The notes beneath the pieces are model-generated. The model ran no database searches and was not told the origin of the DNA. It worked only from the letters and a program-made list of their open reading frames with translations. A stretch of 28,098 nt of DNA, taken from positions 1 through 28,098 of IMG/VR virus record IMGVR_UViG_3300010430_000379. One strand, 5' to 3'. This DNA is from a virus. Each line of letters opens with the position of its first letter. Position 1 is the stretch's first letter. Shown here piece by piece: positions 4,938 through 26,700 of the stretch. The translations under genes were made by a program, and so were the position numbers.

Positions 4938-5652
4938 GAAAAATCTTTCACAGGTATCTGGTACACGAACGCGCTCCAGCGTAGTTGGCACGGATTGGAT
5001 CTATCTGCTGTCGTCCGGTCTGGTTGACTACAAGATGACCGCTACCGAGTTCTTCACCCTGACGGGTGATGTGACTGCGGGCATCGACGGGGTTACGACG
5101 ATTGGCGCCGGCAAGGTGCTGACAGCGAACGTGGCTGACGATAACGTCACGTTCGCAAAAATCCAGAATATCGACACTGACCATATTCTGTGCCGCTCGA
5201 CATCTGGCACGGGTGATGTCGAGGCGAAGAAGATTTCGGAGCTAGACGCCCACTCGCCGGTCGTTAGTACGACGCTGATTCCTGGTGAGACAGCAGCGGG
5301 CAATCTGGTTCATATGACCGCTGCCGATTTATTGGCGCTGGCGTCAAGTACCGCCCGCACGGTAAATGCGCAGACGGGCACGACCTATACGGTGCAGGAG
5401 TCTGATGTTGGCAACATTGTCACGCTGGACAATGCCGCCGCGATAACGGTGACGGTTCCGGATGTGATTGGTGAGGGTGAGTTTGTTGACTTCAAGCAGT
5501 TGGGCGCGGGGCAGGTTACGTTTGTTGGGTCAGGCTACACCATCAACACGCCGGAAACTCTCAAGATCGAGAAGCAGTATGCACCTGCGCGCATTGAGGG
5601 TCTTGGCTCCAGCGCCGGCATTCTTTCCGGTCAGTTAGAACTCGCGCCCTAA
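4930..5652 (+). CDS. tail fibre / minor structural protein
   Basis: A 240-residue protein, starting 8 bases inside the previous gene. The N-terminal half has short fibre-like units (TIGAGKVLTANVADDNVTFAKI) typical of trimeric fibre shafts. Residues about 142-238 form a beta domain widespread in phage structural proteins, with TGTTYTVQESDVGNIVTLDN, AAITVTVP and GAGQVTFVGSG. It probably joins the adaptor to the large spike encoded next, whose ATG shares TAATG with this stop. It has no enzymatic motif. Confidence 0.65.
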   Translation: MAEKNLSQVSGTRTRSSVVGTDWIYLLSSGLVDYKMTATEFFTLTGDVTAGIDGVTTIGAGKVLTANVADDNVTFAKIQNIDTDHILCRSTSGTGDVEAKKISELDAHSPVVSTTLIPGETAAGNLVHMTAADLLALASSTARTVNAQTGTTYTVQESDVGNIVTLDNAAAITVTVPDVIGEGEFVDFKQLGAGQVTFVGSGYTINTPETLKIEKQYAPARIEGLGSSAGILSGQLELAP

Positions 5653-8600
5653 TGCCATACGCCCGCCCCGCACCTGACCGCACAAGCGTTGCGCAGACGT
5701 TTGGTCGCTTTGTTGATACGTTCGGAGGATCGGCAGTAGGTGATGCCTCGCGCACGGTGTCGGGGTCGAGCCACGACTATTATCCCGATTATTGGCAGGC
5801 GGTAACGCCCGCGAACACAAGTATTTACGAGGGCTTGCTTTCGTCTGGTCGGCTGGAAATGTCGGCTATGGGTTCGGATGCCTATAACGCCGCAGAATTG
5901 CGCGGTGTCAATGATGCAACGCTGAACTTTTTCGCGCAGCCCGTCCAGATAAAGCTGACAGGTATTGAGTTCGACCTGACCGGCGGCGGCAACGCCCCGT
6001 ATCGTCATTTGTTGACGGTTTCGATCAACAGTACGCGGGAAAACTGGTGGGATACGCCTTCCAGCATCAAGCTGTATTTGATGGAAAACGAGCGGGTATC
6101 GTTGTCAGGCAAGGCCAATGACGATGATGAAAACCCCGAAAACGTCAACGAGTATGTAGCTGGTGGTGTAGGTGAGAGCGGCGACATCACGGCCACGCTT
6201 TCATCTGCGCCTGATAACGCTACCCTGCGGCTTGATCGCACTTCGTACCATCTGGAAGTGGCCGATAGCAGCGGCAATGCCGCGACGTTCTCCGGCGAGC
6301 ATGGCCTGACGCAATCGGCATGGGGTAAGGGGTTCCATCTGTGTATAGAGGGGCGCTACAACGACGCGACGATTGACGATTCGCCTGTTGCTTCGACCTT
6401 CGGCATCGGTGAGATAGAGGTCGAGAACCTTGTGGCCTTTGATGCCTTCCAGAATGGCAGCATCATCAGTTCGGGGCATACCTTCCGGCAGTACACAAGC
6501 AACGTAACGAACACCGACACGGCCCCGACATCCGCAGACGGTCTGGTATTAACGGCAGACGGGACGGGCACAACCCGCGAATCGTTTGTTATTTCGGACG
6601 TTCGCCCGCAAATCAACCCGTTTTCCAAGCAGCAGACGTTTAGCGGCGATGTTGCTTATTCGGGCACGGCGGCATCTGGCAAACAGGTTTTCAAGTTCGG
6701 TTATACGTCGGAACAGAAAACCCCTACGGCAGCGGCGGATTGCATTGAGGTGCATCTGTCCGATAGTGGTGCATGGGCGGTTTATGAGAAGGCTAACGCA
6801 GCCGGGACAGACCCGTCCAGCCTGACAGCGGTTGACAGCGGGAATATCGGCGCGACCCCAACATCGTTCTCGCTCACGACTACAGAGGACTACTTCTCGC
6901 TGACGCTGAACGGGTCGCGGGTTGGCGAGGCCGATACGTGGGCGGGCAGCACCGCATATTCGCTGAACAACACCGTGTATAACGACACGGGCCGCAAGTA
7001 CATCTGTGTGCAGGCGGGCACATCGGCTGGTTCGGGCGGGCCGACGGGAACCGGCGATGACATAACCGATGGCACGGCGAAGTGGGATTTCGTGCAGACA
7101 GGTTACGATCATGGGTTCCGCGATTCTGGTGATTCATCGGTAACAAACCCGGCGTACAAGTTTGGCACGGCCAGCAGTTTCAACCAATCGGGCGATGCGG
7201 CGTATTTCTTCGCGGGCGAGCGTGACGAGAACACGGCGAACACGGCGGTAATCACGCTCACGAACTTTGCAATCGAAATGGATACCGAGGAGCAGTATGC
7301 GCCTACGGTGTTCGGCACGGTGGGCGATGGCATTACGCTATCGCGCCCGAAGTTGCCCCGTGCGCAGTCGAAGGCGAAATACGGCTATATCGACATCACG
7401 AAAGCGCCGTTTTACGCAGACCCTACGGGCGTACTGGATTCAACAGCGCCGATTAATCTGGCGATCCGCTTCGGCATAGACCACAACCTGATGGTTTATG
7501 TGCCAGCGGGCACGTACAAAGTCACGGACACGATTGGCGGCATCTACGGTTATCAGAAGCGCCGCATTCGCACATCTGGCGGTGATGAAACAACGCAATG
7601 GAACGGGCCGGTGCAGATTTACGGCTCGTACGCCGGGGCGCGTCCGAAGTTCAAGCTAGCGGCTAACTCTGACGGGTTTGATAACACGATTGCGGCGGGT
7701 CGTAAGCCCGTTGTCGAGTTGTGGGCGCAGAAGTATTCAGCCGATTGGAAGTCGGGCGAGAACGACATGATGTGTTCATATTTTATGAACATTGACATAG
7801 AGGTCGAGTCTGGCAATCCCGGCGCTATCGGCATCCGCTTCCAGGGCGCGCAGCAGAGTATTACTAAGGATGTCTGCGTAATCCTACAGTCTGGCTATAC
7901 CTGTTTTGAAGGTGTCCACGGTTCGGGCGGGCTTACGGTCAACTGTCATGCGATGGGCGGGCAGTTCGGGTTCGACATGGAAGCCAGCCTAAAGCCGAAA
8001 TTCGTGGATTCAAACCGCAACGGCGGCGGCGCGCAGCCGTGCCCGGTGCTTATCGGCTGCATTGCAGAAGGTCAGGTGCAATACCCGATCCGTTATCAGG
8101 GGCCGGGTAGCCTGGTTCTGGTCGGGTGTGAGATTTACGTCACATCTGAGTCCACGACGAACACAGCGGTATCCGTGCCATTAGCGAGCTACAACACGGC
8201 TTGCTTTAAGGGCACGGTTAACGCGATAGATACAAGGATAGAGTTTGAGGACTACAACGCGGCGAATACTGCGTTCGATATGGGTTACTCCATATTCCTG
8301 CAAAACGTCTATGTGAATAAGGCGGGCACGGGTTCTGGCGGTATCGTTGTATTCGACGGTAGCGCGGTTAAGGGTGCGAGTTCGTCCACATCGCCAACCG
8401 ACCTTACTGGCTATAACGGCTGGAAGAAGGTCACAGAATTTGCCGAGGGTACTAACCGCGCATCCTCGTCTACTGGCGGCTTTGGCACCTACCGTTATAT
8501 CCATTCGGTGTTCATTGACGGTGAGCGTGGCTTTACTGAGGTCAGCAACACAACAACGTCTAGTGTGTCTGTCCCGTCAACGCTGAGAACCGCGCACATC

Positions 8601-9701
8601 CCGACCCTTCCGCACTTTGAGGAAGCCGGGACGCTCAATGCGATGGATTACGGCGCGGTCGGTGACGGTATTACTGACGATACAACCGCGCTACAGGATG
8701 CGATTGATGCGGCAGAGGCGGCGGGCGTAAACCTGTTTTTGCCGAAGGGTTACTTTAAGGTTCGGGATAAGCTGGATGTAGACGATTGCAAGATTGTCGG
8801 CGTTGGCCCTGGCTTGTCGCAGATTATAGCTAGGGAGGAGGTTGTCGGGATTTTCGACAACGACGCATCACCAACGCCGCTGATTCAGACTACCGACTCC
8901 GCGACTAAAGACCCGACGCTGTGTAACCTCACCCTTCATGCGCCGAGCGATGTAGCGGGCGCGTACTGCCTGCGGCAGCGGGCGGGATTGGCGACGGTAT
9001 TTAATGTTCAGTTCGCAGATCGTAACCATTACGGTTATGGCGGTGTCCCGAGCAAGCCGAGCTACGGGCGCAGGGCGGTGAAACTTGTTCATTACTCTGG
9101 CAATGCTGGTGGGTGGTTCGGGCCTTTCGTACAGGGCGATCATTGGGAACAGAAGGCCGACACACGGCAGTTCTACGGCGATGGTCTGCGCGAGGCGTTG
9201 AATATCTACAGTTTCAACCCTGAGCATACGAAGGCAGACGCGCAAACCGAGTTCAACGACTGCCGGAATTTTAATATCTTCGGCGTTAAGAGCGAAGCCC
9301 CCTATTGCTCAATCTGGATGAGTAACGGCTCCCAGGATTTCAACGTCTACGGGTATGCTGGTAACAAGACGGGCATCCCTGCGGCAGAATTTAACGCTAC
9401 CGATTGGCACCAAGCGGGCGGCGACGAACACGACTACCACGCCACTAATCCGGCCCCTTCTGATCTGGATTATTCGCTGACGCACTCTATCTATCGGATA
9501 GATGCCGACTGTGACAATTACCGATTCACAACGGTTATGCCGAGCGGGTGCGATGGCGCGGGTTATCAAAACGTGTACGTGCGCGGGTTTGACCCGAATA
9601 CGTGGCCTGCCATTTGGGACGATGCGAAAACCGAATCCCCGGCAGACGAAACGCCAGCCCTTGACCGTCCGGTGTTGTACAAGCGGGGGTCGCCGCCGTG
9701 A
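5652..9701 (+). CDS. giant tailspike/depolymerase with two beta-helix domains
   Basis: 1349 residues, by far the largest gene here. Residues about 1-240 form a beta-rich base. About 250-560 resembles a laminin-G/concanavalin-like region, interrupted near 425-485 by a CBM5/12-type insert (TWAGSTAYSLNNTVYNDTGRKY, then DGTAKWDFV). The first pectate-lyase-like helix starts near 575 with a YVPAGTYKV edge. A second starts near 989 with the classic MDYGAVGDGITDDTTALQDA and FLPKGYFKV. Such proteins bind and often cleave capsule or O-antigen. Catalytic residues cannot be named from sequence alone. Two helices in one chain suggest fusion or duplication with divergence. Confidence 0.75.
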   Translation: MPYARPAPDRTSVAQTFGRFVDTFGGSAVGDASRTVSGSSHDYYPDYWQAVTPANTSIYEGLLSSGRLEMSAMGSDAYNAAELRGVNDATLNFFAQPVQIKLTGIEFDLTGGGNAPYRHLLTVSINSTRENWWDTPSSIKLYLMENERVSLSGKANDDDENPENVNEYVAGGVGESGDITATLSSAPDNATLRLDRTSYHLEVADSSGNAATFSGEHGLTQSAWGKGFHLCIEGRYNDATIDDSPVASTFGIGEIEVENLVAFDAFQNGSIISSGHTFRQYTSNVTNTDTAPTSADGLVLTADGTGTTRESFVISDVRPQINPFSKQQTFSGDVAYSGTAASGKQVFKFGYTSEQKTPTAAADCIEVHLSDSGAWAVYEKANAAGTDPSSLTAVDSGNIGATPTSFSLTTTEDYFSLTLNGSRVGEADTWAGSTAYSLNNTVYNDTGRKYICVQAGTSAGSGGPTGTGDDITDGTAKWDFVQTGYDHGFRDSGDSSVTNPAYKFGTASSFNQSGDAAYFFAGERDENTANTAVITLTNFAIEMDTEEQYAPTVFGTVGDGITLSRPKLPRAQSKAKYGYIDITKAPFYADPTGVLDSTAPINLAIRFGIDHNLMVYVPAGTYKVTDTIGGIYGYQKRRIRTSGGDETTQWNGPVQIYGSYAGARPKFKLAANSDGFDNTIAAGRKPVVELWAQKYSADWKSGENDMMCSYFMNIDIEVESGNPGAIGIRFQGAQQSITKDVCVILQSGYTCFEGVHGSGGLTVNCHAMGGQFGFDMEASLKPKFVDSNRNGGGAQPCPVLIGCIAEGQVQYPIRYQGPGSLVLVGCEIYVTSESTTNTAVSVPLASYNTACFKGTVNAIDTRIEFEDYNAANTAFDMGYSIFLQNVYVNKAGTGSGGIVVFDGSAVKGASSSTSPTDLTGYNGWKKVTEFAEGTNRASSSTGGFGTYRYIHSVFIDGERGFTEVSNTTTSSVSVPSTLRTAHIPTLPHFEEAGTLNAMDYGAVGDGITDDTTALQDAIDAAEAAGVNLFLPKGYFKVRDKLDVDDCKIVGVGPGLSQIIAREEVVGIFDNDASPTPLIQTTDSATKDPTLCNLTLHAPSDVAGAYCLRQRAGLATVFNVQFADRNHYGYGGVPSKPSYGRRAVKLVHYSGNAGGWFGPFVQGDHWEQKADTRQFYGDGLREALNIYSFNPEHTKADAQTEFNDCRNFNIFGVKSEAPYCSIWMSNGSQDFNVYGYAGNKTGIPAAEFNATDWHQAGGDEHDYHATNPAPSDLDYSLTHSIYRIDADCDNYRFTTVMPSGCDGAGYQNVYVRGFDPNTWPAIWDDAKTESPADETPALDRPVLYKRGSPP

Positions 9702-14313: not shown

Positions 14314-14503
14314 GATTGCGTTTTCTTTGCTGGTGTCGGTATTCACGATATGGGCCGGGGTTCACCTTGCACGGTCGGTGCGCAATCGGCGTGGCAAGAA
14401 GTATCTGGTTTATTTCAATGATGGCGGCACGGGTGTTTACGGCCCCAACCTTCATGCCCGCTTGATTAAGGCGGGTGTAGTGGCTCGGAGCGTGGCCCTG
14501 TGA
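14306..14503 (+). CDS. small single-helix membrane protein
   Basis: 65 residues. The start ATGGTTGA overlaps the portal stop by 8 bases. Residues 2-23 form one membrane helix (IAFSLLVSVFTIWAGVHLA) followed by a basic stretch RSVRNRRGKK and a soluble domain. The positive-inside rule places the C-terminus in the cytoplasm. Small membrane genes between portal and scaffold are not usual; a role in superinfection control or membrane-associated assembly is speculation. The next ORF begins in GTGA. Confidence 0.6.
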   Translation: MVEIAFSLLVSVFTIWAGVHLARSVRNRRGKKYLVYFNDGGTGVYGPNLHARLIKAGVVARSVAL

Positions 14504-19530: not shown

Positions 19531-19975
19531 ACGGGTATCACTGGCGGAAATGCTTGAAGAAACGGGCACACCGGCACTCGGGTATTCCAAGCCGCAGAAA
19601 AACACTATCTACATTCGTGACGGGATGCCGAAAGGTCTTGAGAACGAAGTGATGGCGCATGAATACGATCACATGAGCAGGGGCGAGGAGGGGCCGTTTG
19701 ACCCGATTTCTGCTCTTGCGGTTGGTGGGTCATTGGTGAGCGGGTTTCTTGGTGCGAAGGGCGCGAAGGACGCGGCGCGGGCATCGGCGGAGGGATCGCA
19801 GGCGGGTATTGCGGAGAACAGGCGGCAGTTTAACCTGTCCCTGCTTTCTAATTTGCTCTTGAACGCCCCGGCCATCAATACCGCCAACACGGCTCGCTCC
19901 ACCCTCTCGGGTCTGCTGGGGCTTAATGTCCCGGGCACACAGTATCGGGCGAAAGACATTCGGGGGTTAGTGTAA
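19517..19975 (+). CDS. ejection-region protein with HExxH zinc-protease motif
   Basis: 152 residues. Residues about 25-60 contain NTIYIRDG and EVMAHEYDHM: H48-E49-Y50-D51-H52 fits HExxH of zinc metallopeptidases, with E57/E58 as possible third ligands. After this come a glycine/alanine-rich hydrophobic segment (about 63-82, ISALAVGGSLVSGFLGAKGA) and an amphipathic tail. The gene opens the ejection block and abuts the gp7-like gene (its TAA at 19973-19975 shares a base with the next ATG). It may be a peptidase carried into the cell or used in virion maturation; activity is not demonstrated. Confidence 0.6.
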   Translation: MTQVKRVSLAEMLEETGTPALGYSKPQKNTIYIRDGMPKGLENEVMAHEYDHMSRGEEGPFDPISALAVGGSLVSGFLGAKGAKDAARASAEGSQAGIAENRRQFNLSLLSNLLLNAPAINTANTARSTLSGLLGLNVPGTQYRAKDIRGLV

Positions 19976-20499
19976 TGCTGCCATTTGCCAGCAAAGCCAT
20001 TCTTAATAGCATCAAGTCGAAAGAACGGGCGGAGAACAACAACACCTCCGACGCGGCGAAGGCAATCGCTTCGGCGTTTGCGAACTTACATGCGCCGGCA
20101 TCGAGAGCGGTGCCCCCGGGGCAGTTAGATAATCGTCTGCAAGCGACCCCGGGCTACCAGTTCGCCAAGAATGAAGCGGTTGACTCCATCATGGGCAACG
20201 CATCGGCGCTGGGTCTGCGACAATCCGGCGCGAACATTCAGAATATCGCCAGTGCGGTTGGCAATCAGGTGGCATTGCCGGCCTATCAGGACTACATGAA
20301 TCGGCTCGGCAGTTTGTCTGGTGCGGGCACTTCGACGAGTCTTGCGCAGACGATTGGCAACCTAGCGACAACGTCCGGGGCGCTGAATGCGAACCTGATG
20401 CAGAATGCGGGCGATGCAAAAGCGGCGGGCGCGTTGGGTCAGGCGGGCGCGTGGCAGAACACGATTGGTGGCCTTTCCAGCATTCTTGGAGGGTTGTGA
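19975..20499 (+). CDS. DNA ejection protein, gp7-like
   Basis: 174 residues. The segment LQATPGYQFAKNEAVDSIMGNASALGLRQSG, then YQDYMNRLGSLSGAGTST, matches the widespread phage injection pattern (PGYQF..N.....A...G...SG, then Y.NRL..L.G.G). It is Ala/Gly/Ser/Gln-rich, as ejection proteins are. P22 gp7 is one of three proteins released ahead of the DNA to span the envelope. The gene follows the previous stop directly and is followed by the gp20-like gene after five bases. Confidence 0.7.
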   Translation: MLPFASKAILNSIKSKERAENNNTSDAAKAIASAFANLHAPASRAVPPGQLDNRLQATPGYQFAKNEAVDSIMGNASALGLRQSGANIQNIASAVGNQVALPAYQDYMNRLGSLSGAGTSTSLAQTIGNLATTSGALNANLMQNAGDAKAAGALGQAGAWQNTIGGLSSILGGL

Positions 20500-20504
20500 T
20501 ATAG

Positions 20505-21689
20505 ATGAGCAACGTATTAAACAGCATCATCGCCACGGCGTTCAATTCGGCCAATCAGGCTGGCGCAGACCCGGCGAGCCGGTTTGTTAATGCGCGGCAG
20601 GGCCGTGAGCAGTTGGATTCCATGAATGCGCTGCGGGATACGCAGACGCAGGCGAGCCAGATGGCGCTTGAGGACGAGCGGGCAACCCGCGACCTCATGG
20701 GGCAACTGCATGCCATCCGTGAGAAGCAAGCGGCTTTACCGCAGGCTCAATCGGAAGCAATAAACAACTTCATGGGAGGTGTTGAGAGGGGCACGATTAA
20801 CCCTGACCTTGCCGAGCGCGCTGTGCAGATGCTACAGCAGCCGGGTGTTGAGTTGAGTCAGGAGCAGGACAGGTTGATAAACCAACTCGCCCAGGTGAAC
20901 CCGTCTGTTCGCGATGCGTACATTTCTGCCCTGTTCCCGCAGGAGCAGGGGCCGCAGACGAACATCGGCAAGCTGATCGCGGAGCGTGATTCGCTTCCTG
21001 AGGGTGATCCGCGCAGGGCAATCTATGACGATGCAATCGCAGAGGCCACGCAGCAAGACCCCGGCGTTAATGTGACGACGAATGTGGATACCGGCAAGGC
21101 AGAATCCGCTGGCGTCAAGAAGGCGGCGGAAGTCGCCGCTACTCGTCTGGACGAAGGCGACCAGGAAGTGCAGAAGGCGCATAATATGCTCGGCGTTATT
21201 TCTACCGCCAAGCAGCAACTTAATCAGGGCATCATTGCTGGTACGGGCGCGGATTTGCGGCAGAACTTCGCCACACTGCTTTCGACAATTGGGATCGGTG
21301 ACGGTACTGCTGAGAACACTCAGACTTACATAGCCGCAACTGCTGGGCTGGTTGCTGACGTTATCAAGCAATTCGGTTCCGGCTCTGGCCTGTCGGACGC
21401 AGACCGAGAGTTTGCCAAGATCATGGCTGGTGCATCGACTAATCTGACCCCGGCAGCACTGGCGCGCATTCTGGACATCAACGCACGGGCGCAACTGGCG
21501 AAGATACAGAGTTTTAATGACACCCGTGGTCGAGTGGCCGAGAAATTCCCGACGCTGGGCGGGCTATATCAGGACTATGCGCTGCCGGAATTTGAGTTTG
21601 AGCCAAGCCCGGTAGAGTCATATGACACAGATGGTATGAATCCGCGAGATGTCGCGGAGCTTGAGGCGCTATTGCTGGGTGTCGAATGA
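20505..21689 (+). CDS. DNA ejection protein, gp20-like
   Basis: 394 residues, mainly helical and Gln/Ala-rich, with long coiled-coil-like stretches in the first 180 residues. The C-terminal part has the motif SGLSDADREFAKIMAGASTNLTPAALARIL, frequent in phage injection/internal virion proteins. The position between gp7-like and gp16-like genes fits gp20. It probably forms part of the tube or pore used for DNA entry. The stop overlaps the next ATG as ATGA. Confidence 0.7.
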   Translation: MSNVLNSIIATAFNSANQAGADPASRFVNARQGREQLDSMNALRDTQTQASQMALEDERATRDLMGQLHAIREKQAALPQAQSEAINNFMGGVERGTINPDLAERAVQMLQQPGVELSQEQDRLINQLAQVNPSVRDAYISALFPQEQGPQTNIGKLIAERDSLPEGDPRRAIYDDAIAEATQQDPGVNVTTNVDTGKAESAGVKKAAEVAATRLDEGDQEVQKAHNMLGVISTAKQQLNQGIIAGTGADLRQNFATLLSTIGIGDGTAENTQTYIAATAGLVADVIKQFGSGSGLSDADREFAKIMAGASTNLTPAALARILDINARAQLAKIQSFNDTRGRVAEKFPTLGGLYQDYALPEFEFEPSPVESYDTDGMNPRDVAELEALLLGVE

Positions 21690-23539
21690 AACCAAGCGGT
21701 AAGGAAAAACTGGAAGAACTGCGAAAGGCCAAAGGTGGTGGCGATAAGCCGAGCGGAAAAATAGCCCTGGAGTCGTTGCGCGAGAAGTCTCGCATAAAAA
21801 AGATGGGCGCACTTGAGCAACTAGGGCGTCAGTTAGGATTGACAGCCCGTGCGGTTGGGGAGGGCGTCGCAGACTTGGGCGGGATATTCAGCGACCCGCT
21901 TACACTTGCGATCAACAAAGGGCTGGAGGCTCTTGGCGCAGATTATCAGCTCATGCCTGCGTCTGAGGCGATGTCTGATGTCCTCACTGATGCGGGCCTG
22001 CCTGCACCAGTGACAGGGCGTGAGAAGGTGGTCAATTCAGCAGGCCGAGCCGCAGTAGCCGCTGGGCTAACAATGGGTGGTGGTGCAGTATCGGGCACGA
22101 AATCAGGGGCCACTCTGGCAGAGGCGCCGCTTGCCCAGTTAATGGGCGCAGAATCTGGCGGGGCTGCGGCGGAACTTGCTCGACAGCAAGGTGTCGGCCC
22201 TGCTGGGCAGGCCGCTGCTTCTCTTGCCGGCGGCATTGCAGGCGGTGGCGCGGCTTCCGTTGCATCCGGTATTGCCAACACTACAGGCAGAATGCTCACG
22301 GGTTCTGTTCGTCCATTTACAAGGGGCGGGCAGGAAGATATAGCCGCGTCGGTTCTACGAAGTCAGGCAACAGACGCAGATGCGGCAGCACAGCGCCTCG
22401 CTAATTCGCAGGAGGTTGTGCCAGGCTCTGTTCCGACAACCGGCGCTGCCTCTGGTGATGTAGGTTTGCTCGGTCTTGAAAAGGCTGTCAGGACGCAGAG
22501 CAGGGAGCAGTTTGGCGACAGGCTATCTGAGCAGAACCTTGCGCGTCAGCGCGCACTGGATGACATTGCTGGTGACGAAGCGGACATTGTCGCCGCTAAA
22601 CAGCAGCGGGACGTTGAGACTAGCGCGATGAGGGACGCCGCATTTGAGAACGCGGGCAGCGCGGATGTGTCACCCGTGGTTGGGAAAATAGACGAGATAC
22701 TTGCGAGCCCGAAGGGCAAGAGAACCGCAGTTAATCAGGCGCTCTCTGACATACGCCAGCAGCTCGACGGAGTTTCAAACCCGGAGGAGCTGTATGCCAT
22801 CCGCCAGAACATTGGCGACATGATGAGCGGAAAAGTCAAAGGCGAGAAGTCAAACCTAAAACTCGCTCGCAGCCAGCTCATCGACGTGCGCGAGTCTCTT
22901 GATAATGCGATCGAGTCAGTTGCGCCGGGGTTCAAGGCGTACCTGAGCCGGTACCGCGAGCGCTCCAAGCCGATAGACCAGATGGAGGTATTGCAGGAGA
23001 TTCGCAAGCGAGGCCAGCTTGCAAGTTCTTCGGACATACAGACCGGACGGGAGTTTCTGTCTACAGCTAGTTTCAAGAGGGCCGTGCGTTCTGCCGACAA
23101 GAAAGGCGATCTTAAAGTCCTAACCCCTGCTCAGAGAGAAACTCTAAACGCGGTCGCTGCGGATCTTGAGCTTGGCGGGGCCATAAGCTCAAGCCTTCTC
23201 CGGGCGCCTGGCTCGGACACCATGCAGAACATATCAGCCGCGTCAATGATGTCGGCAATGATCGGGCGCGAGGCGTCGGACATTCACCCACTATTTGCAT
23301 CACTTGTAAGGCCGATTAACTGGCTATACAGGTTGCCTGACGAAAAGATCACAGAGATATTGACTGAGGCAATGCTTGATCCCCGTACTGCCCAGAAATT
23401 GCTGCAAAAACCCCGCCCCAAGACGATGAGGGCGCTAAGTATAGACCTTCGACGGAAGGCGAGGGGGTTAGGTATTGGCTCTAGTGTAGCGTCGGCCACC
23501 ACGCCAAGAGACCAGCAAAGGCAGTCAGAAGGCCAATAG
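21686..23539 (+). CDS. DNA ejection protein, gp16-like
   Basis: 617 residues (P22 gp16 is 609). A basic N-terminus is followed by GALEQLGRQLGLTARAVGEGVADLGGIF, seen in many podophage internal proteins. A long Ala/Gly-rich hydrophobic region (about 112-205) could insert into membrane. The helical segment RTQSREQFGDRLSEQNLARQRALDDIAG and a basic C-terminus follow. It is the largest ejection protein and should assist DNA passage across the inner membrane. Its 3' end overlaps the minus-strand small gene by 59 bases. Confidence 0.72.
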   Translation: MKPSGKEKLEELRKAKGGGDKPSGKIALESLREKSRIKKMGALEQLGRQLGLTARAVGEGVADLGGIFSDPLTLAINKGLEALGADYQLMPASEAMSDVLTDAGLPAPVTGREKVVNSAGRAAVAAGLTMGGGAVSGTKSGATLAEAPLAQLMGAESGGAAAELARQQGVGPAGQAAASLAGGIAGGGAASVASGIANTTGRMLTGSVRPFTRGGQEDIAASVLRSQATDADAAAQRLANSQEVVPGSVPTTGAASGDVGLLGLEKAVRTQSREQFGDRLSEQNLARQRALDDIAGDEADIVAAKQQRDVETSAMRDAAFENAGSADVSPVVGKIDEILASPKGKRTAVNQALSDIRQQLDGVSNPEELYAIRQNIGDMMSGKVKGEKSNLKLARSQLIDVRESLDNAIESVAPGFKAYLSRYRERSKPIDQMEVLQEIRKRGQLASSSDIQTGREFLSTASFKRAVRSADKKGDLKVLTPAQRETLNAVAADLELGGAISSSLLRAPGSDTMQNISAASMMSAMIGREASDIHPLFASLVRPINWLYRLPDEKITEILTEAMLDPRTAQKLLQKPRPKTMRALSIDLRRKARGLGIGSSVASATTPRDQQRQSEGQ

Positions 23540-23651
23540 GGATGAGTAGGAGCGGGTGGATTAAATATGCTCCCGCAGAAAATCCAATTACCGCGAACAC
23601 AACGCCAATTCGGTAAAAGAGCAGGAAGGCTGTCTCAATAAAGGGCCACAT
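23481..23651 (-). CDS. small two-helix membrane protein, superinfection-exclusion candidate
   Basis: The minus-strand ORF runs from ATG at 23651 to TAG at 23481-23483; 56 residues beginning MWPFIETAFLLFYRIG and ending AWWPTLH. Two hydrophobic helices (about 7-30 and 33-52) are split by a short IHPLL turn; hardly any charged residues occur (one Glu, one Arg). It is the only convincing minus-strand gene. It lies between the gp16-like and tailspike genes, where P22 carries its divergent immI/sieA region. A role in exclusion or lysogenic conversion is inferred. No clear promoter or ribosome site was found. A chance frame in antisense DNA is the alternative. Confidence 0.5.
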   Translation of the reverse strand: MWPFIETAFLLFYRIGVVFAVIGFSAGAYLIHPLLLIPIGLLTAFAGLLAWWPTLH

Positions 23652-23668
23652 TCTATAAACATACCACG

Positions 23669-23691
23669 AAACCCGCTACGGCGGGTTTTTT
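23669..23691 (+). terminator. Rho-independent terminator after ejection genes
   Basis: CCCGC (23672-23676) and GCGGG (23681-23685) around TACG, extended by AAA/TTT pairs and six T (23686-23691). It ends the head/ejection transcript. On the minus strand the same hairpin lies just upstream of the small membrane gene, with only three T after it. Confidence 0.85.
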
Positions 23692-23705
23692 ATTGGATTT
23701 AACAT

Positions 23706-25820
23706 ATGCAAACGAAGTTTTTTCCCCCGAGATTTCAAGGAGTTGACGGAAACGGTGATGTGATCGTTGGTTCCGTCGGTTTCTACCAAACGGGGACAAC
23801 GACCAAGATAACCACCTATTCGGACTACAACCGGGCGACTGCCAACGCTAATCCGCTGAACACGGACAGCAACGGTCGGTTGGGGCCGGTGTTCTTTGAC
23901 CCGTCCGACCTTTCTACGGGTGTGAAGGTGGTTTTCTACGACGCTGCTGATGGCGGTGGGTCTGTTGTGTACACCGACGACCGTTATGCGTATGACGAGC
24001 CTATTGCGTGGTCGGATATTTCCTCGCTGATTACGCAGGCGCGGGTGGGGGAGATTCTATACCCGAGGACGCAGGCAGAGATTGACGCATCTGTCACGCC
24101 GACCGATTACTCGGCGGAACCCGGTTATGCGGTGCGGTATGGCGTGGGGTCGGGCTCCACGGCTGCGGCGAACCAGACTGGCCTACAGGCGGCGTTGAAT
24201 GTCGCACGGCAGGCGACTGCGAATAAAGAGCGCCACATCATTCTCCCGGGTGGTCAGATTGACATCGCTGGCCCCGTCTATGGGCAGTACGACGCATCGA
24301 ACAACGCGGTGAGCCCGTCGGATGATCGCTCGGCGGGTCGCATCACCATCGAGGGTCAGGGGTGCGGCGATAAGAACAATGCCGGCCACGGTGAGGCGCG
24401 TGGCACCGTCTTAAATTTCACGGCAACGACGGGCAATCAGTTCGTCATCACCAACTACCGCGACTCGGTAACGCCGGCAGGCATCATTGCGCGTGGTGTT
24501 TGCTTGGCGAACTTCGCCATATGGGGCGCGACCACTGGAATCCTGCTCTATGGGCGCGGTGCGCAGTGGCACGATTGGAAGAACCTCGTTGTTTTCAACA
24601 GCGAAGATGGCACGACCATTGACACGACTGACGGGCTCGTTTTTAGCCGATTCAAGAATATCCAGGTTGTCCCGAAGGGCGACGGGACAGGCACCGGCTG
24701 GGTGGCAGATTGGGTTGTTTCCGGTGGCGGATCTACCCGGTTCGACAATGTTGTATTTGACGAACACAACAACAGTTCGACGGGCGGATTTGCTGTCAAC
24801 ATGGATTTAGGCTCGGCATATGACGGGTCGCGCACAGCCTTTGCGAAGAATGTCCGTTTCCACCAGTGCGCATTCCAAGACGGAACCATTCAACTGCGCA
24901 TTCGTCATGGCCTTGCTGATGCGCTGTTTGATGATTGTTGGTGGGAGGGGTCAACGGGTGCATCGGGTCGTTCAGTCGTAATTAGCGATTCCGCTGGGTT
25001 CTCTGCGGTATCCGGTGAAGAACCGATGGGGTTGACCTTCCGCGATTGCCATTTTGCTGACGTTGGCGACAACACATCAGGGCGTAAACAGATCGTATTA
25101 GGGTCGACGGGTGGGAACGATAATACCGACTCGCATGGCCCGGTTTCGTTTATTCGCCCAACAGTTGTTGGCACTCCGTCGAATGTCCCGTTCATCACAA
25201 AATACAACAACACATATGACCAGCAAGTGCTGATCGAGAACCCGATTGCGAACCTTACGGGCAATGGCTACCTGATTATGCACATGTCAGATACCGGGCA
25301 CTATGGGCCGGTGAAACTGGTTGGCGTGGCGGGGTTGCATGAGGTATCGCCCGCCCGCTGGACTGTGGATTCTGGCGGAACCGACCTCAAAGGGCGTTGG
25401 CTGGCTAATGGCTCGGATATGCCTGCTGACCTAGTGGCGACGAATAGCGGTTCGCCCGACTATGACTATTCCAACGCACCATCCATGCCATCAGAAATAT
25501 TCTCGACGGTCGGCGCGGGTGATACACAGACTGTTTACCTGCCAAACGGCCCGCGAGTCCAGGTGGGGCAGGTGTTCACCGTGACCGTCTATAACAGCGA
25601 GACAACCAACCTGCTGATATTTGACGCACGGACTGACATTGCCGGAACCCCGGTTGACAACGAGATAATCGACCAGACGAACGACGCCTCTGCCAAGACG
25701 CTGAACATTCTTCCCGGCTCTAGCGGGTCAGGTAACAAGCGGGCGGTGTGGCGGTTCGTCCTGCGGGATTTCAACAAGAGTACGCAGCACTGCATATGGC
25801 ATGCGGCTGAGATTGTCTAG
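23706..25820 (+). CDS. tailspike with P22-type head-binding domain and beta-helix
   Basis: 704 residues. Residues about 1-100 form a head-binding/collar domain: PPRFQGVDGNGDVIVGSVGFYQTGTTTKITTYSDYNRATANANPLNTDSNGR, then VKVVFYDAADG. Such domains attach podophage spikes to the gp10 hub. From about 150 a right-handed beta-helix is expected (TGLQAALNVARQ, IILPGGQIDI, then repeated strand runs to about 520). The C-terminal 120 residues form a beta trimerisation or carbohydrate-binding tip. It probably binds and cleaves a surface polysaccharide. The gene starts 14 bases after a terminator, so it needs read-through or its own promoter. Confidence 0.8.
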   Translation: MQTKFFPPRFQGVDGNGDVIVGSVGFYQTGTTTKITTYSDYNRATANANPLNTDSNGRLGPVFFDPSDLSTGVKVVFYDAADGGGSVVYTDDRYAYDEPIAWSDISSLITQARVGEILYPRTQAEIDASVTPTDYSAEPGYAVRYGVGSGSTAAANQTGLQAALNVARQATANKERHIILPGGQIDIAGPVYGQYDASNNAVSPSDDRSAGRITIEGQGCGDKNNAGHGEARGTVLNFTATTGNQFVITNYRDSVTPAGIIARGVCLANFAIWGATTGILLYGRGAQWHDWKNLVVFNSEDGTTIDTTDGLVFSRFKNIQVVPKGDGTGTGWVADWVVSGGGSTRFDNVVFDEHNNSSTGGFAVNMDLGSAYDGSRTAFAKNVRFHQCAFQDGTIQLRIRHGLADALFDDCWWEGSTGASGRSVVISDSAGFSAVSGEEPMGLTFRDCHFADVGDNTSGRKQIVLGSTGGNDNTDSHGPVSFIRPTVVGTPSNVPFITKYNNTYDQQVLIENPIANLTGNGYLIMHMSDTGHYGPVKLVGVAGLHEVSPARWTVDSGGTDLKGRWLANGSDMPADLVATNSGSPDYDYSNAPSMPSEIFSTVGAGDTQTVYLPNGPRVQVGQVFTVTVYNSETTNLLIFDARTDIAGTPVDNEIIDQTNDASAKTLNILPGSSGSGNKRAVWRFVLRDFNKSTQHCIWHAAEIV

Positions 25821-25822
25821 CC

Positions 25823-26293
25823 GTGACGCAAGTGACCGTAGAGACGCGGCTCAATGCCGTTGAGCGTGACTTAGCCGGTGTCGCGGCGGAGCAACACGCA
25901 CAGCGTCAATCGCTTACGTCAATTGAGAGCAAGCTCGACAACATCATCGCGGCGAGGGGTGAAGAAGGTCGCCCCAACTACGCGGTGTGGGCGGGGTTTG
26001 CCGGAATCATGCTGACGATGATGGGGATGGTCGGTGCGGTCGCTGCCTTCGCTATAAAGCCACTCTATTCGCATATGCGCGACGGTCATCCGGTGCGGGT
26101 CGAGTCACTTGTCGGCGCGGAGTCGAAGCGCGTAGACAAGATAGAGAGCGAACTGGACAAGCACAAGCATCAGGGCGCGCATACCAATGCAGCGGAGCGA
26201 ATGTCGAACCTCGAGGCACGCATGAGCGAGGCCGAGAAGAACATCGAGGATATAGATAAGTTCGGTTCGCGCAACTGGGCGCACGGCGAATGA
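25823..26293 (+). CDS. coiled-coil single-pass membrane protein, lysis-associated
   Basis: GTG at 25823, two bases after the tailspike stop; 156 residues. Residues about 5-45 are an amphipathic helix (VETRLNAVERDLAGVAAEQHAQRQSLTSIESKLDNI), 53-82 one membrane helix, and 95-148 a second coiled coil (SKRVDKIESELDKHKHQ, MSNLEARMSEAEKNIEDID). It directly precedes and overlaps the amidase gene, so a lysis role, such as an i-spanin-like linker, is plausible. No lipobox or companion o-spanin was seen. Function uncertain. Confidence 0.55.
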   Translation: MTQVTVETRLNAVERDLAGVAAEQHAQRQSLTSIESKLDNIIAARGEEGRPNYAVWAGFAGIMLTMMGMVGAVAAFAIKPLYSHMRDGHPVRVESLVGAESKRVDKIESELDKHKHQGAHTNAAERMSNLEARMSEAEKNIEDIDKFGSRNWAHGE

Positions 26294-26700
26294 GGCCGCA
26301 AACGAACTATATCGTTGTCCACTGCTCCGCGACCGAGCCTAACCAGAACATCGGCGTTGAGGAAATCCGCCAGTGGCACATGGCCCATGGGTGGGATGAC
26401 GTTGGTTATCACGTTGTCATCAGGCGAACGGGGAAGATTGAATTTGGCAGGCAGATGGACGCGGTCGGGGCGCATGTTCGGGGGCACAACCGGGAGTCCG
26501 TCGGCATCTGCATGATTGGCGGTCTGGACAGCGAAGGTCGTCCGGCCAACACATTCACACGGCAACAGTTTGACGCACTCCATGAGGTATTGGATGTGCT
26601 GTTGCTCGCATATCCCGGGGCCGAGATATTGGGTCATAGGGACTTCCCCGGGGTGCAGAAAGAGTGCCCGTGTTTCGACGTTAAGGATTGGTTTGAATGA
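26290..26700 (+). CDS. endolysin, N-acetylmuramoyl-L-alanine amidase
   Basis: 136 residues, ATGA overlap with the previous gene. This is the Amidase_2/T7-lysozyme-type fold. Probable zinc ligands are H11 (YIVVHCSAT), H116 (GHRDFPG) and C126 (QKECPCFD); Y40 and K124 match the catalytic Tyr and Lys of T7 lysozyme. Length is close to T7 gp3.5 (151). It lacks a signal peptide, so it should reach the peptidoglycan through the holin encoded next. An extra cysteine, C128, stands where T7 has Gly. The enzyme cuts the bond between muramic acid and L-Ala. Confidence 0.9.
   Translation: MRPQTNYIVVHCSATEPNQNIGVEEIRQWHMAHGWDDVGYHVVIRRTGKIEFGRQMDAVGAHVRGHNRESVGICMIGGLDSEGRPANTFTRQQFDALHEVLDVLLLAYPGAEILGHRDFPGVQKECPCFDVKDWFE

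Follow-up and report, generated by a model that had tools for sequence, protein, structure and literature searches.

An environmental phage carries one small ORF on the strand opposite to its late genes, at the junction between its DNA-ejection genes and its tailspike gene. Is this ORF a gene, and could its product act like SieA, which P22 encodes at the corresponding place? The window analysed is a 28,098-nt stretch of a virus in IMG/VR (record IMGVR_UViG_3300010430_000379, positions 1–28,098). Its late region has a P22-like order of terminase, portal, capsid, gp7-like, gp20-position, gp16-like, tailspike and lysis genes. The features around the junction are listed here, with loci given by L numbers.

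19975–20499, plus strand: gp7-like DNA ejection protein (phrog_598 'DNA ejection', E 1.1e-11).
20505–21689, plus strand: 394-aa protein in the gp20 position, placed by gene order; its Pfam match is sub-threshold.
21686–23539, plus strand: gp16-like ejection protein of 617 aa; its gene runs towards the small gene, and the two share 59 nt.
23481–23651, minus strand: putative gene for a 56-aa two-helix membrane protein (ORF calls, homologues in L002/L003 and L140, frame-specific conservation, AlphaFold2 hairpin).
23658–23666, minus strand: predicted extended −10 promoter, TG-g-TATGTT, with its end 6 nt upstream of the start codon; transcription would begin (+1) at the A of that codon.
23668–23692, plus strand: intrinsic terminator hairpin, GAAACCCGC-TACG-GCGGGTTTTTTA, closing the transcription unit of gp16 and lying directly upstream of the minus-strand promoter.
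23706–25820, plus strand: tailspike/fibre-like gene, 704 aa, the right bound of the junction (ORF call, N-terminus conserved with L002, weak phrog_26190 match).

The 617-aa gp16-like gene has no Pfam or PHROG match; its name rests on gene order and relatives, as does the tailspike assignment. The strong terminator hairpin folds at −16.2 kcal/mol (z −4.5). The small ORF starts 17 nt to its left, and L002 has a similar hairpin at the corresponding place. Positions 23666–23711, with the terminator and the tailspike start, match 45 nt of Citrobacter phage CF1 (L005 3001–3045) at 93.5% identity. In that unrelated phage the stretch precedes a tail fibre gene, and terminators of this kind may be points where fibre modules are exchanged. 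The match was rejected as a relative of the small gene because its span is limited to the terminator and the start of the fibre gene. Elsewhere the window encodes a phosphoadenosine phosphosulfate reductase (700–1617), possibly an auxiliary metabolic gene, and two further spike- or fibre-like ORFs: one of 1349 aa with a pectate-lyase-like domain (5652–9701) and one of 285 aa that is open at the contig end (27242–28096). No integrase and no S24-type repressor were found in the fragment.

The small ORF has an ATG start, 56 codons and a TAG stop. All other credible genes of the fragment, including the open fibre-like ORF at the right end, are on the plus strand, in agreement with a preliminary description of a lone minus-strand ORF of 56 residues. 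That description also set the ORF between the gp16-like gene and the tailspike. The position at the junction stands, but the ORF is not strictly intergenic, as its final 59 nt lie within the 3′ end of the gp16-like gene. The two-helix membrane build it proposed was recovered: hydrophobicity extends along the entire protein, with 19-residue Kyte-Doolittle peaks of 2.01 and 2.05, and AlphaFold2, run on a 9-sequence alignment, predicted helices at residues 2–31 and 33–50 (pLDDT 87). Pinholins are typically two-helix proteins of 50–70 aa, and by build and size the product could be a lysis component, a pinholin or antiholin, encoded on the opposite strand. This is improbable: the window already has a lysis cassette on the late strand (an amidase at 26290–26700 and small neighbours, one with weak holin-like PHROG matches), and a gene on the minus strand under its own promoter would be uncoupled from late transcription.

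Frame-specific conservation argues that the small minus-strand gene very probably exists. The closest relative reaching the junction, L002/L003 (gp16 58% identical), encodes MWSLTKRAALIYYRVNLVAIYAALTVAAFMLHPLLAAPTALLLTFAAVLVWTPEIR at the same place and on the same strand. The window protein, MWPFIETAFLLFYRIGVVFAVIGFSAGAYLIHPLLLIPIGLLTAFAGLLAWWPTLH, aligns with it ungapped over 56 codons, with the stop in the same column (36% identity; BLASTP E 6e-9 for the pair). The BLOSUM sum of this pair is 119 in the gene frame and at most 76 in the other five frames; column shuffles gave 33 ± 18, and 0 of 5000 reached 119. A more distant relative, ...VERSIIILYRTAQCAFTAALVVGAWLIHPVLGIIAGWL..., is encoded by L140 (gp16 35% identical) and has the motifs YR and GA(Y/W)LIHP in common with the window protein. 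The second pair, L096/L011, was tested wholly outside gp16 and scored 117, against at most 74 in other frames, with 17/11/23 changes by codon position. When only the intergenic part of the window was shuffled, an ATG ORF of at least 30 aa with a TM-like segment arose in 2% of cases. Searches in wider collections added little: the 56-aa protein had no tblastn match in 50,697 phage records, IMG/VR pattern searches based on it or on its small alignments returned nothing or L002/L003 only, and PADLOC, Pfam and PHROGs gave no convincing match. Matches to the hairpin of a pore-forming colicin (8iom, a weak profile match at E 0.012) and to ZorA, and Foldseek matches with E above 1, were judged generic helical-hairpin noise.

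Relatives were gathered by gp16 alignments, and the ejection|tailspike junction of each was then read. A junction was scored positive if it held a minus-strand ATG ORF of at least 30 aa with a strong TM segment. Among relatives with a gap at the junction, 14 of 17 had such an ORF, where about 1 was expected from shuffling the intergenic part only. Another gapped junction, L004, would be the fifteenth; its ORF, read as 52 aa, is just under the cut-off. The ORFs of L011, L096 and L137 were found in a scan allowing wider antisense overlap. Two gapped junctions, L014 (4893–4956) and L132 (753–831), have no minus-strand membrane ORF and are natural 'empty' forms; that of L014 retains its terminator. 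A bacterial prophage match, L144, was rejected as an added case, as it has its own gp16-like architecture and no usable junction.

The antisense strand of hydrophilic gp16 ends favours hydrophobic frames, and the ORF could in principle be a chance frame of this kind with no gene behind it. Some antisense hydrophobic frame does occur in 11 of 58 gapless relatives (Fisher p 3e-6 against the gapped set). This explanation is nonetheless very improbable given the two independent frame-specific conservation tests, the enrichment at the junction and the promoter motif described below. Because such frames are not rare, single cases without conservation (e.g., L137 and L012) are weaker than the ensemble. 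The preliminary description had named a reading frame not conserved in relatives as grounds against the gene; the frame is instead kept in L002, and the feature recurs in many relatives.

The junction proteins form several families, most of them unannotated, and their sequences are very diverse. A two-helix group contains the window, L002 and L140, and perhaps also L012, L016, L023, L011, L096 and L137. One one-helix group has the pattern M..D(Y/F)(I/L)..K...F.TG(R/N)S (L004, L134, L142 and L210), and another contains L013/L098/L101 and perhaps L131. Profile links between subfamilies (A7–A8 96%, A5–A8 70%, A5–L023 68%) suggest one two-helix superfamily. A single family is not claimed, because hydrophobic profiles inflate such scores and A5–A7 reached only 3.7%. 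A DUF2852 match of L011 was below the cut-off.

Among named genomes with this gene order, the small minus-strand membrane genes at the junction are annotated in CBW1004C-Prop1 and Pam5. In the cyanophage Pam1, in Pan3 and in Rhodoferax phage P26218 the minus-strand ORFs there are unannotated. Pam1, Pan3 and Pam5 are Pseudanabaena phages. The junction of Pseudanabaena phage Pam5 (L153 14167–14692) is filled by two adjacent minus-strand small membrane genes, annotated as hypothetical proteins only. In CBW1004C-Prop1 (L009 25882–26235), a second minus-strand gene beside the junction membrane gene encodes a secreted Tyr/Asn/Ser-rich 117-aa protein. Integrases are present in five relatives, namely the contig of L002 and CBW1004C-Prop1, Pam1, Pan3 and Pam5; four of the five are complete genomes. 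Not all carriers are clearly temperate, because no tyrosine or serine integrase was found in P26218 and several longer contigs.

The window ORF has no Shine-Dalgarno site upstream. An extended −10 element (TGn-TAnnnT) instead lies exactly 6–7 nt before the ATG in six of 18 junction ORFs, the window included. The other five are L002 (TG-g-GATACT, 7 nt before the ATG that aligns with that of the window), L140 (TG-c-TATCCT, 6 nt), L009 (TG-g-TAAAGT, 6 nt), L096 (TG-c-TAGACT, 7 nt) and L137 (TG-g-CATACT, 6 nt). This arrangement precedes 0.41% of all ATGs in these loci, and shuffled upstream regions predict 0.07 cases in 18. Across the 153 hydrophobic ORFs of the 18 loci, the six that have it are exactly the six junction ORFs. 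The only junction match in a strict held-out scan of 1.04 Mb was Pam1 (TG-c-TATTCT, 6 nt), whose ATG has its A at position 14338 of the record, on the minus strand; the one other match was a sequence present twice (L230/L231), outside any junction. Since the rule was framed after the first three members had been seen, independent support comes from L009, L096, L137 and Pam1. Looser forms occur in Pan3, L165, L166 and L201. Most junction ORFs without an extended −10 have a Shine-Dalgarno site, and the two classes are nearly mutually exclusive (p 0.001). In L012 (7880–7905), L098 (1348–1375), L131, L134 and L172, the GGAGG of the minus-strand gene is inside the plus-strand terminator hairpin, 7–9 nt before the ATG, so that a single element seems to act on both strands.

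With the −10 element ending 6–7 nt before the ATG and no Shine-Dalgarno site, the window ORF has the form of a leaderless gene, so a leaderless mRNA is predicted. Leaderless phage mRNAs are known for lambda cI and for PY54 cI and cro (PMC4488713). The likeness lies in a promoter that places the first transcribed base on the start codon, and the known cases include prophage-expressed genes. They encode repressors, whereas the window gene would encode a membrane protein and its start site is predicted. The same promoter faces the 3′ end of gp16, and a P22 moron is thought to affect the tailspike level (PMC2629481); the transcript might thus matter as an antisense RNA tuning gp16 or tailspike expression, and the protein not. 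Such a role is quite improbable, as conservation is at the protein level where gp16 does not overlap, the spacing from promoter to ATG is fixed, and other junction ORFs have Shine-Dalgarno sites.

The preliminary description had likened the position to that of the P22 exclusion genes, and rightly so. In P22, sieA occupies the interval between genes 16 and 9; it is read from the minus strand towards gene 16 and lies 22 nt from the end of that gene. The sieA genes examined in detail sit in this interval (Leavitt et al. 2024, PMC10883804), and the position is constant across other sieA types despite strong sequence divergence. P22 SieA is a multi-helix membrane protein with its own promoter, as proposed for the window protein. 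The differences are as clear. P22 SieA has 164 aa and the window protein 56; sieA does not overlap gene 16, whereas the window ORF overlaps its neighbour by 59 nt; and the P22 record annotates the sieA promoter about 31 nt upstream of the start, so sieA is not leaderless, unlike the prediction for the window. No homology to P22 SieA was detected by hhalign (probability 0.2), and the SieA motif FxRYPxEAxxFNK is absent from the 56-aa sequence. SieA-family proteins have about 160–200 aa and several TM helices, against two helices here, and membership is further defined by escape mutations in gp16 and gp20. By sequence, with no homology, no motif and a third of the size, the window protein is not a member of the SieA family. 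HK97 gp15 is nearer in size, a 62-aa membrane exclusion protein whose gene adjoins a DNA-delivery gene (the tape measure). It differs in having one predicted helix, in being encoded on the same strand as its neighbours and in belonging to a long-tailed phage; the window protein has no homology to it and no match to phrog_5031.

The junction also corresponds to the 'ant moron' region of P22-like phages, where variable, independently expressed genes are inserted only at the 16|9 junction. The epsilon34 paper finds morons at this point only of the P22-like morphogenetic cluster, and larger P22-like phages carry mixed genes in the slot, including mnt/arc/ant and genes of unknown function (PMC2629481). 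The loci described here belong to environmental phages that are only distant relatives of Salmonella P22, and usually have a single gene of about 35–120 aa; overlap with gp16 and a leaderless-type promoter are both frequent. As in morons, which are independently expressed inserts variable among relatives, the gene is present or absent, occurs in unrelated versions at one junction and has its own promoter-like site, from which expression is predicted. A moron of this kind could have another membrane role in the lysogen, for instance altering the envelope by lysogenic conversion or acting as a small type I-like toxin or a membrane-stress peptide, with the ejection proteins not its target. Small hydrophobic proteins are typical of such genes, and the great diversity of sequences at the site and the mixed gene set of the larger phages would fit. 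This is possible but rather unlikely; the constant place beside the ejection gene, often overlapping it, is better explained by a link to ejection.

The favoured explanation, held at about even confidence, is an independently expressed moron whose SieA-like exclusion protein hinders the ejection conduit; it is close to the block on DNA entry that the preliminary description had suggested, which is plausible. The explanation is preferred because the junction is the sieA slot, morons occur only there, and the integrases fit expression in a lysogen. A SieA-like mode of working is read from place, orientation and membrane character. We infer prophage expression from the promoter-like sequence and the integrases in relatives, and the course of transcription, membrane insertion, exclusion and its target as follows. 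Host sigma-70 polymerase would use the extended −10 promoter just past the terminator hairpin, and the resulting mRNA would be leaderless, beginning with the AUG itself. Its 56-aa product would sit as a two-helix hairpin in the inner membrane, either of the lysogen or of a cell just infected. As SieA does against P22, it may there disturb how related superinfecting phages assemble their ejection-protein conduit, or how that conduit functions. Within the conduit the most likely target would be the gp16-like component, the rival phages' counterpart of the protein encoded next door.

More tentatively, many environmental P22-like phages may carry, where ejection and tailspike genes meet, an unrecognised class of exclusion proteins of 35–120 aa. 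Often leaderless and encoded on the strand opposite the end of the cognate ejection gene, these would block conduits formed by relatives of that gene's product. If the proposal is true, the slot that SieA has in P22 would be general among short-tailed phages and house many miniature membrane proteins unrelated to one another. Annotation would overlook their genes, which are short and overlapping, encode hydrophobic products on the wrong strand and in many cases lack a ribosome-binding site. The proposal would then provide a ready list of candidate DNA-entry inhibitors, each with its likely target encoded next door, and how SieA-type proteins stop the conduit would become testable with very small proteins.
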